Of a stretch of 64,000 nucleotides of DNA, positions 30,693 to 62,960 are shown piece by piece (position 1 is the stretch's first letter; each line of letters opens with the position of its first letter). This stretch comes from Miltoncostaea marina (GTDB lineage: Bacteria; Actinomycetota; Thermoleophilia; Miltoncostaeales; Miltoncostaeaceae): assembly GCF_018141525.1 (NCBI RefSeq), contig NZ_CP064655.1, forward strand, positions 1,054,001 through 1,118,000. Direction: 5' to 3'. The position numbers and the translations under genes are program-made. A model generated the notes under the pieces. The model saw only the letters and a list, made by a program, of their open reading frames with translations, did not search any database and was not told the DNA's origin.

Positions 30693-31867
<1,175 letters not shown>

Positions 31868-32449
31868 TCCGGCGTCGCCCCCGGGCGGGCCGTCGCCCCC
31901 GGGCGGGCCGCCGCCCCCGGGCGGGCTGCCGCCGCCGGGCGGGCCGGGCCGGCGGTGACCCGGGGGCCCGGGCGGGTCGTCGAGCAGCCAGCGCCCCTCG
32001 CGGAACCAGCGGCGCATGGTGCGCACGCTGGGCGGCCGGGCGGGACCGGCCTCGAGCGAGGCCAGCAGCGACCCGATCACCGCCGCCGGGTGCTCGCCGG
32101 CGGCGAAGCGCCGCTCGGCCTCGGCGCGCAGGGCCGGCCAGGCGTACGAGCCGGGGCGCGGGCGCCCCCCGTCGCCGCGCGACAGCAGGCGCGCCCGGTG
32201 CAGGTCGAGCGCCCGGTGGCGGCGCCGGTCAAGGCAGCCGGCCGCCCCCCAGACCGACATCAGGCTGACCACCAGGTCGCGCCCCACCCGCCGGCGCTGG
32301 AAGGCCGCCGAGCGGTGGGCCGCGCAGAGCCAGACCGACACCCCGGCCGGCAGGTGCAGCTCGGCCCGCGGCCCCTCGCCCGGGCCGGCGCAGATCGCAC
32401 AGGGCGGCCGGCTGCCGAGCGAGCGGTCCTTGTAGTAGCTGCGCGCCAT
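31868..32449 (-). CDS. Conserved-looking Cys-containing protein with collagen-like tail (3' end uncertain)
   Basis: ATG at 32449. About 150 ordered residues: MARSYYKDRSLGSRPPCAIC with a C-x2-C pair, WLCAAHRSAAFQRRRVG, a helical stretch SYAWPALRAEAERRFAAGEH, and PPSVRTMRRWFREGRWLLDD, which looks like a small DNA-binding helix pair. A Gly-Pro-rich tail follows (GPPGGD/GPPGGG repeats). No stop occurs before the argD stop region; the frame stays open antisense to argD as far as 30368. The end given here is a convenience. Possible regulator; function unknown. Confidence 0.5.
31873..31944. repeat. Four tandem 18-base repeats (collagen-like coding)
   Basis: Units at 31873, 31891, 31909 and 31927, the first two identical (CGTCGCCCCCGGGCGGGC). 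On the minus strand each encodes GPPGGD or GPPGGG in the tail of the adjacent protein. The 18-base period keeps frame, which supports coding. Confidence 0.75.
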
Positions 32450-32533: not shown

Positions 32534-32802
32534 TCGCAATCGGACGCGCGCCCGAGGTCCGATCGGACCGCTTCCCCGCACGAGGGGCGGGCGGGGGCGT
32601 CGGCAGCGGCCCTGAGCTCGGGCGTCAGATCGGACGGCGCGCCGGGCCGTGTCGCGATCGGACCACCGCTCGAGGTCCAATCGGACATCGACGAGACGGC
32701 GGGCGCCACGTCGGCCTCGGCGGCGGCCCTGGTCCCGGACGTCGAGCGGACGGCGCGCCGGGCCATGTTCCGATCGGACCGCGGCCCGAGGTCCAATCGG
32801 CC
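32534..32802. repeat. Repeat array A: paired GTCC-N4-GGAC dyads, three units
   Basis: First dyads at 32534-32545, 32652-32663 and 32768-32779 (spacing 118 and 116 bases). Second dyads at 32557-32568, 32675-32686 and 32791-32802, always 23 bases after the first. The best half is GTCCGATCGGAC at 32557, a perfect palindrome. Between units, GGCGCGCCGGGCC and a GCGGCCCTG segment also recur. Same family as arrays at 46.8 and 62.4 kb. Confidence 0.8.
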
Positions 32803-46352: not shown

Positions 46353-46369
46353 CGGCCGCCCGCCCCCGC

Positions 46370-46389
46370 GCCGCGCGCTGCGGCGCGGC
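46370..46389 (+). terminator. Hairpin after dnaE
   Basis: GCCGCGC / GCGCGGC with a 6-base loop, 17 bases after the dnaE stop. No U-tract. Followed by the convergent amphi-Trp gene. Confidence 0.45.
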
Positions 46390-46425
46390 TCGTCCGCGGC
46401 CGCCGTGCGCGGCGCCACGGGCGCG

Positions 46426-46671
46426 TCACGTCGCGATCGGCCCGCCGCGCCAGCCGATCTCGATCTCGATCTCCATCCCCTCGTCGTCCTGCTCGATCTC
46501 GACGGACAGCTGCACCTCGTCCGGCACCCGGACGCTCAGCCGCTTGCCCTCCCGGGTCACCTGCAGCCCGTTGTTCGACGCGAGCTCGTCGGCGATCGCG
46601 CGCAGCCGCCGCGCCGCCTCCTCGCGGCTGACCGTCGCCTCCTGGCCGTAGAGCTCGTATTCGTCCGACAT
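46426..46671 (-). CDS. Amphi-Trp domain-containing protein
   Basis: 81 residues. Sequence begins MSDEYELYGQEATVSREEAA and ends EGMEIEIEIGWRGGPIAT; an amphipathic helix is followed by alternating hydrophobic beta strands ending with the conserved W. This family occurs widely in bacteria and haloarchaea with no known function. ATG with GGAGGAC 5 bases before. It ends close to dnaE on the opposite strand; array B lies upstream. Confidence 0.85.
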   Translation of the reverse strand: MSDEYELYGQEATVSREEAARRLRAIADELASNNGLQVTREGKRLSVRVPDEVQLSVEIEQDDEGMEIEIEIGWRGGPIAT

Positions 46672-46789
46672 CCGTCCTCCCGGTCGAGTGGTCCCATATC
46701 CATACCCCGCCCGGCCCTCGGGCGCATCACAGCGCCGCCGCCCGGCGACGCCCGGGCCGGCGCCCGCGGCCTCCCAGGCGACCGTCCGG

Positions 46790-47470
46790 ATCCGATCGGC
46801 CCGCTGCGCCCCGATCGCGGTCGAGGTCCACTTGGACGCGGCGCCGGGGTCCATTCGGACGTCTCGGCCGCGGTCGAGGTTTACCCCGACGCCGCGCCGG
46901 CATCCGGTTGGCGCACCGAGCCGTCGCCGCGCGGGAGGCGCGCCGGCACGGCGGCCGGCTGCGTCGGTCGGCCGACCGACGCAGCCGGGGGCGGGGTGGC
47001 GGTCCACTTGGACCCGGCGTCGGGGTCCATTCGGGCGTACCGGGCCGTCGCTGCGCGGGAGCCGCGCCGGCACGGCGGCCGGCTGCGTCGCTCGGCCACC
47101 GACGCGCCCGGCGGGTGGTGGTCCACTTGGACCCGGCGTCGGGGTCCATTCGGGCGTGTCGGCGTCGCCGCACGGAGCCCCGCCCCGCGCACCGGCCGGT
47201 CCCTCGGCCGCGTCGATCGGCCGGCCGCTGCGCCCGGCGGGGTGGTGGTCCACTTGGACCCGACGCCGGGGTCCATTCGGACGCGTCCGGCTGGCGCCGG
47301 CACGTGCCCTCCGTCCCCGGTCGGTCGGTCGGCGGGGTTCCCGGCGCGCGGGACGTCCGAATGGACCTCGGCGCCTCGTCCAATCGCGCAGACCACAGCG
47401 CCTCGTCCGATCGCGCGGACCGCGGCCCCGGGGCGCGTCCCGGGGCCGCCGGGCGCGTCCGAGTGGCGCG
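46790..47470. repeat. Repeat array B: paired dyads within ~120-base tandem units
   Basis: Four 37-base cores at 46825, 47001, 47120 and 47247, each GGTCCACTTGGAC...GGGTCCATTCGG(A/G)CG with the two dyads 23 bases apart. The last three units share a longer ~120-base repeat, including GCCGGCACGGCGGCCGGCTG. A 30-base perfect palindrome lies at 46957-46986. At 47355 a pair appears in the opposite orientation (GTCCGAATGGAC, then GTCCAATCGCGC 23 bases on). Same family as arrays A and C. Confidence 0.85.
46957..46986. repeat. 30-base perfect palindrome inside array B
   Basis: GGCTGCGTCGGTCGG at 46957-46971 is followed by its exact reverse complement. Degenerate versions occupy the same place in the next two units, so the hairpin belongs to the repeat unit. 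Confidence 0.85.
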
Positions 47471-47515
47471 TCCGCGCCCCTGTCAAACCCGCGCACCCGG
47501 GGCCGGCGCGGACGC

Positions 47516-47573: not shown

Positions 47574-47978
47574 ATGAGACGCTCCGCCGCGGCGGTCTCC
47601 GCCGCCGCAGGGTCGTGCCGTCAGTGCCCGGTCTCGTGCGAGCGGACGGTGCGCCCGGCGGGCTGCCTGGAGGCCGGGTGCCCCCGGCTCTACTCGTACG
47701 AGCGGGACGGGCGCACGTGGGTGGGGTGCATGGAGGGCGTCTACCGGGTCGAGATCGACCTGGAGCGCCTGCGGCGCATGCAGCGCACCGCGGCGGGGTT
47801 CGGCTCGCTGCGGGCGGCGAAGGAGCCGCTGCCGATCTGCGACGCGGCCGTCGAGCGCACGTTCGAGCACCGCTCGGAGGCGCCCTGCGTCAACCCCGAC
47901 TTCCTGCTCTCGGGCACCGACGTGCGTTACACGGTCACCGCCGCGCCGGGCGCCGCCGGGGCCGAGCGCCGGGACTGA
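47574..47978 (+). CDS. Conserved Cys-rich hypothetical protein
   Basis: 134 residues. Eight cysteines, several in metal-site arrangements: SCRQCPVSCERTVRPAGCLE and AGCPRLYS near the N-terminus, then VGCMEGVYRV, PICDAAV and PCVNPDFLLS. The central EIDLERLRRMQRTAAGFGSL is helical. It looks like a small zinc- or Fe-S-binding cytoplasmic protein. No family recognised. It stands directly downstream of array B, and a minimal 7-codon frame overlaps its start. Confidence 0.65.
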   Translation: MRRSAAAVSAAAGSCRQCPVSCERTVRPAGCLEAGCPRLYSYERDGRTWVGCMEGVYRVEIDLERLRRMQRTAAGFGSLRAAKEPLPICDAAVERTFEHRSEAPCVNPDFLLSGTDVRYTVTAAPGAAGAERRD

Positions 47979-62437: not shown

Positions 62438-62960
62438 GTCCGAATGGACCTCGCGCGCGCCCGAGTGGACCGCTGCGGAACGGGCGCGGCGGCGACCGCT
62501 GTGAGGCGCCCCCGCTCAGGCGGCGACCGCTGCGCCGCCGGGTCGCGGGCTCGTCGATGCCAAGTGGACCTCGGGCTCGCGGACAAGTGGACCCCACGTC
62601 CGGAACGCTTCCTGCGGACCGGCGCCAGGCGCGCTGCTCAAGGCCCCCGGCGCCTCGTGCCCCGGGCCGCGGGACGGTCGATGCCAAGTGGACCTCGGGG
62701 TCGCGGCCAAGTGGCACCCTCGTCCGGACGGGCCCGTGCGGCCGGTGTCAGGCGACGCTGCGCAGGGCCGCGATACGCCCCGGCCACGGCCCCTCCGCGG
62801 TGCGTCCAAGTGGACCTCGGGCCCGCGGCCAAGTGGCCCCCTCGTCCGGACGCCCCCCCGGCTTGAGGCGAGCGACGCTGCTCAGGGGCCCCCGACCCCT
62901 CCGCCGCCGCCCGCCCGCGCCGTACGCCGGAGTGGACCGCGGGCCCGGGTCCGATCGGCT
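62438..62960. repeat. Repeat array C: five ~122-base units with paired dyads
   Basis: First dyads at 62438, 62558, 62682, 62804 and 62926 (spacing 120, 124, 122, 122). In the last four units the second dyad (62581, 62705, 62827, 62949) starts exactly 23 bases after the first. The clearest is GTCCAAGTGGAC with GGCCAAGTGGCC at 62804-62838. CTCGTCCGGA and a GCGACGCTGC segment also recur. Opposite in orientation to array B. Confidence 0.85.

Follow-up and report, generated by a model that had tools for sequence, protein, structure and literature searches.

Genus-restricted clusters of twin-dyad repeats and a CxxC/CxxH helix-turn-helix protein family as their candidate binder

The window analysed here is a stretch of 64,000 nucleotides (positions 1,054,001–1,118,000) from the genome of Miltoncostaea marina (G000), a single contig of 3,370,274 bases with about 77% G+C. 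Array B, at 46790–47470 of the window, repeats a 35-bp unit five times, four times directly and once inverted; each unit comprises two 12-bp dyads, GTCCRNTYGGAC, with a pitch of 23 bp. The direct copies read GTCCACTTGGAC / GTCCATTCGG(A/G)C, with dyads at 46826/46849, 47002/47025, 47121/47144 and 47248/47271 and an offset that is always 23 bases; these are the four near-identical cores of the original prediction. A 62-nt repeat family occurs at 46814, 46990, 47109 and 47236 (spacings of 176, 119 and 127), with 74–84% identity to the reference. The pair at 47355 had been predicted to be inverted and does match on the minus strand, though its second dyad is degenerate; it was also recovered by the genome pattern search (1101357–1101385, minus strand). 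The same search confirmed the predicted opposite orientations of arrays B and C, and since orientation varies among loci genome-wide, this opposition carries no message. With up to two mismatches, GTCCAYTTGGAC has 28 matches in the 64-kb window, compared with 4.0 ± 2.1 in shuffled sequences. All features are collected in Table 1.

Table 1. Features of the window that bear on the twin-dyad repeats (window positions).
Feature	Position	Strand	Remark
CxxC/CxxH protein gene, ~160 aa, with excisionase-like HTH	31970..32449	-	Proposed binder; one of three near-identical G000 copies
Own twin-dyad site of the array A gene	32534..32568	-	Dyad starts at 119 and 96 bases upstream of the start codon
Remainder of array A	32652..32802	+	Two more twin-dyad pairs upstream of the gene
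Block of amphi-Trp gene and array B	46353..47490		Approximate limits; missing at the orthologous dnaE/conserved-ORF junction of three genus relatives
amphi-Trp domain gene (PF20068)	46426..46671	-	Neighbour of array B within the block
Twin-dyad pair 1	46826..46860	+	GTCCACTTGGAC-N11-GTCCATTCGGAC
Three tandem ~120-bp units	46910..47282	+	Each a linker, its hairpin intact or decayed, ahead of a dyad pair
Perfect 34-bp palindrome	46955..46988		Linker of the first hairpin-plus-pair unit
Twin-dyad pair 2	47002..47036	+	
Twin-dyad pair 3	47121..47155	+	
Twin-dyad pair 4	47248..47282	+	
Inverted twin-dyad pair 5	47355..47389	-	Degenerate second dyad; then a partial 27-bp repeat to 47417
Array C	62438..62838	-	Dyad family in common with array B, in minus orientation

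The palindrome at 46955–46988 has 17-nt arms that are 100% complementary, and its module recurs, decayed, at 47034–47097 with 92% identity over 64 nt. The original description, of a palindrome perfect in one unit and decayed in the next two, was correct apart from the length, which is 34 bp rather than 30. RNA folding of the linkers gives z-scores of −3.4, +0.1 and −3.1 for the three units. It had further been suggested that hairpin and dyad pair make up one composite unit. Within array B they are indeed tandemly co-duplicated, but the composite does not hold as a general unit, because the hairpin core is local and the dyad pair occurs elsewhere with other linkers, so that the two modules move independently: the hairpin module precedes only three of the four direct pairs, its 30-base core has no other occurrence among the 154 fetched loci, and about 20 other clusters carry the dyad pair with different linkers. 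The hairpin is a local passenger of array B, and the dyad pair is the general unit. A decayed protein gene was rejected as the source of the repeats, since just 8 of 275 clustered dyads lie inside a called gene and 23 is not divisible by 3.

In three relatives of the same genus (G001–G003), dnaE is directly followed by the conserved ORF that starts here at 47574, and about 1.1 kb, comprising the amphi-Trp gene and array B, is missing. The amphi-Trp gene (46426–46671, minus strand), which shares this block with array B, appears to be either mobile or subject to loss. Its homologue in G001 sits elsewhere, at 403 kb, with no listed dyad pair nearby, and a search of G002 and G003 found none. Co-mobility of array B with this gene was rejected on the strength of the G001 homologue; the two do not form an obligate unit.

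Genome-wide figures come from pattern searches and fetched stretches. With up to two mismatches, the pair pattern occurs at 92 places in G000, as against 7 for the reversed control, and these matches group into about 20 intergenic clusters. With up to one mismatch, it occurs at 63, 133, 15 and 11 places in the four genus genomes (G000–G003), and is at control level in further genera belonging to this family and class. Among 396 actinobacterial genomes, the exact pattern was found 41 times in G000 and once each in two others. A stricter pattern hit a single place in the GTDB contig collection, which may omit records near the window genome; the hit lies on a MAG contig whose matched sequence equals the G002 locus. 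Taken together, the searches show that the twin-dyad clusters are restricted to one bacterial genus. Array positions at 1040, 2621 and 2386 kb are common to G000 and G001, and one at 2.63 Mb is common to G000 and G002, with differing numbers of dyads in both comparisons. These shared positions, together with the absence of the array B block from the relatives, indicate that arrays are inherited in place and also turned over.

The geometry of the pair is uniform. In the fetched loci of every genome, neighbouring dyads most often lie 23 bp apart, with 40 such pairs in G000, 102 in G001 and 17 in G002/G003. The GTCC/GGAC half-sites are strongly conserved and the dyad centre is less so. Half-sites and pitch are constant over loci and species while the linkers are completely different, which makes a neutral tandem repeat without function highly improbable, even though unit number and linkers vary among loci and species as such a repeat would have them do. 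A 16-bp element, CGAGGTCCANTTGGAC, forms inverted repeats in some isolated pairs and direct repeats in the runs; the pitch is 23 for both direct and inverted neighbours. A pitch that is independent of the arrangement points to proteins spaced on double-stranded DNA rather than to an RNA hairpin.

Where do the arrays sit? Array-bearing gaps are convergent in 18 of 35 cases compared with 25 of 126 baseline gaps (p = 4e-4), an enrichment that is only indicative, since the gene calls come from a home-made caller and array gaps are longer than average; divergent gaps are less frequent than in the baseline. The bias may reflect a role at gene 3′ ends or simply a tolerance of insertions in such gaps. 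The same enrichment could arise if the repeats acted as transcription terminators or as hairpins in the RNA of gene 3′ ends, and a few isolated pairs are in fact perfect or near-perfect long hairpins. One of them, a near-perfect inverted twin dyad at 2.631 Mb (L029, 4172–4206; z −7.0), fills the entire gap between convergent stop codons and resembles a bidirectional terminator, with a related pair at the matching place of G002 (L094, 2358). We nevertheless regard terminators as very unlikely to account for the family, because the two halves of a pair are no more complementary than expected by chance (7 hairpin-grade pairs observed vs 10.3 with shuffled partners), the array B pair folds with a z-score of −1.7, direct-repeat runs fold poorly, and an Rfam covariance search gave no match. 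The pairs are not selected as hairpins and, in contrast to intrinsic terminators, have no compensation-conserved stem.

Array A (32534–32802) lies within a block of about 0.7–0.84 kb, of which G000 has three copies at 94–97% identity, and the block includes a minus-strand gene that starts at 32449. Three near-identical blocks mean that array A and this gene were dispersed together. The encoded protein belongs to a family that is without name or description so far and is multi-copy in the genus, with 7, 8, 6 and 7 matches in G000–G003 (broken copies counted in pieces); one other genus has 7 matches (G010), and a few relatives have single copies. The conserved region of about 157 residues has invariant C17, C20, C42 and H45, a PGSYAW motif and a C-terminal S..TMRRWFREGRW segment. 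This last segment weakly matches the excisionase family PF07825 in 10 of 19 members (16.6 bits, under the curated cut-off of 23) and also lambda Xis chains, with an E-value of about 0.6. The helix-turn-helix (HTH) and zinc assignments are motif-based; a single-sequence structure model (pLDDT 48.7) was too poor for searching. No family match was found in PHROGs, NCBIfam or PADLOC, and a phage or plasmid origin was rejected, as phage, plasmid and viral collections held no homologue.

Two side observations concern the integrity of the copies. One family copy (G000:C1:1328989-1329457) is broken, its match being split between two reading frames in pieces that overlap. Past the conserved GRWL end, the frame of the genus copies meets no early stop and continues as a Pro/Gly-rich tail (31697–31970 and homologous loci), which in the array A copy runs antisense into the neighbouring aminotransferase gene; the G010 copies end with normal stops. 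This continuation may represent a disordered tail or, alternatively, a non-stop message.

The family genes carry the dyad at a fixed upstream position. With dyads counted at a score of at least 8, one lies between −119 and −111 relative to the start codon in 15 of the 20 genus copies that have upstream sequence, against a background of 7 in 290 called genes of the array stretches, some of which are themselves family copies. A copy from another genus (G018) has its dyad at −123. A conserved upstream site, as looked for in an autoregulatory operator, is present in several species. Within 900 bases downstream of the genus copies, the single hit was a weak one (L126). A gap-free alignment of nearly all genus copies spans the two sites, 23 bp apart, and a conserved GGCACGG-like stretch after them. 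The second site regularly departs from the perfect dyad, reading GTCCRATYGCGAC or GTCCAATCGCAC, and the palindrome score consequently does not clearly single out 23 upstream of genes (8.96 at spacing 23, 8.89 at 15); the 23-bp spacing there rests on the gap-free alignment, the score being insufficient by itself. A paired site fixed upstream of nearly every family copy suggests the family protein as its binder.

Half-sites also differ among paralogues. Variants such as GCCC..GGGC (2057 kb copy), GTCG.. (1606 kb copy) and GCGTC.. (G003c) retain the 23-bp centre spacing, as counted by eye on alignments. In a table of residues and half-sites drawn up by hand and post hoc from related paralogues, GGAC-type half-sites accompany arginine at position x of S..TMxRW in 8 of 10 copies and E, Q or N in 0 of 4 (p = 0.015). 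Some G010 copies (L118, L128) are preceded by palindromes with a CCA-N-TTGG core, GCGCCACTTGGCGC and TGGCCAATTGGCCA; their sequences suggest that this core may be older than the GTCC half-site.

Array loci of G000 are confined to two mid-arm zones, at about 0.55–1.12 and 2.39–2.64 Mb. Two array-free stretches of 1.27 Mb lie around the origin and the presumed terminus. Such confinement might be expected of positional chromosome sites, bound by an unrelated chromosome-organising or global DNA-binding protein that would have the HTH genes merely among its targets. We think this quite unlikely: G001 shows no zoning, with sites near both origin and presumed terminus, and half-site variation among paralogues would not be expected if one unrelated protein bound all the sites. 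Mid-arm zoning as a mechanism was rejected because it is not repeated in G001 and the GC skew is too weak for placing the terminus.

The reading to which we lean, with a little more than even confidence, is that the dyads are operators of the CxxC/CxxH-HTH family and that array B is an orphan operator cluster. A dimer of the family protein would bind each 12-bp dyad, neighbouring dimers would cooperate across 23 bp, and the pair next to the gene would be autoregulatory. Arrays may arise by tandem duplication of operator regions. Most arrays, including B, have no family gene nearby; such orphan arrays could serve to titrate the protein or enable its action at remote intergenic sites, chiefly gene 3′ ends. 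No functional theme was seen among array-neighbouring genes in the flanking proteins scanned. The combination of convergent enrichment and divergent depletion is unusual for ordinary operators and counts against the operator reading, as do the lack of a family gene near most arrays, the missing functional theme and the imperfect second dyad upstream of the family genes. A more far-reaching proposal, which we hold only tentatively and consider rather doubtful, is a new kind of repeat–protein partnership, in which small paralogous zinc/HTH proteins found throughout the genus, each with its own half-site specificity and all with the common 23-bp architecture, might spread or maintain their own operator arrays along the chromosome without a known transposase.

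How does this compare with known systems? With paired dyads at a constant distance ahead of the gene for their proposed regulator, the system recalls an autoregulated transcription factor with a multi-site operator. It differs in that there are several paralogues, whose half-sites are not alike, and in that orphan arrays lie mostly at the 3′ ends of unrelated genes. Lambda Xis binds closely spaced repeated sites, and the recognition helix of the HTH family weakly matches excisionases (PF07825); however, the family falls below the Pfam cut-off, has an N-terminal CxxC/CxxH domain and is encoded by multi-copy chromosomal genes. In plasmid iteron arrays, a single protein binds direct repeats that span about two helical turns. 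The twin dyads, in contrast, are dispersed over the chromosome, the HTH protein matches nothing in the plasmid collection, and no replication initiator was seen among the flanking proteins scanned at array loci.

Another parallel is with REP/BIME elements and their RAYT transposases, which are dispersed, short palindromic intergenic repeats in paired or mosaic arrangements, with a gene family that carries the repeat (PMC2817692, PMC3733652). The twin dyads are likewise dispersed, intergenic and paired, biased to gene 3′ ends and set in mosaic tandem arrays with local linkers; the repeat-carrying gene is itself duplicated, and the array B block is missing in relatives. Dyad pairs of this kind could be mobile or amplifying, spread by the HTH protein or by an unrelated transposase. 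We consider such an element unlikely. A Y1 transposase (PF01797) was found in none of G000–G003, the control genomes being positive, and identity with REP/RAYT was rejected for this reason. The GTAG/CGTC tag is absent from the position profile of 159 dyad pairs, and the pairs are often direct, at the 23-bp pitch, rather than hairpins. Whereas a RAYT gene is flanked by two inverted repeats, the HTH family has its dyads upstream only; its protein has no recognised catalytic residues, and several array positions are common to different species. What the twin dyads present is a still unexplained class of intergenic repeat tied to one undescribed, testable protein family. If confirmed, they would constitute a repeat–protein system analogous to REP/RAYT that operates without an HUH enzyme, and would offer a natural series of paralogous regulators whose operators diverge while the geometry stays constant, which would be of use in research on the evolution of DNA-binding specificity.
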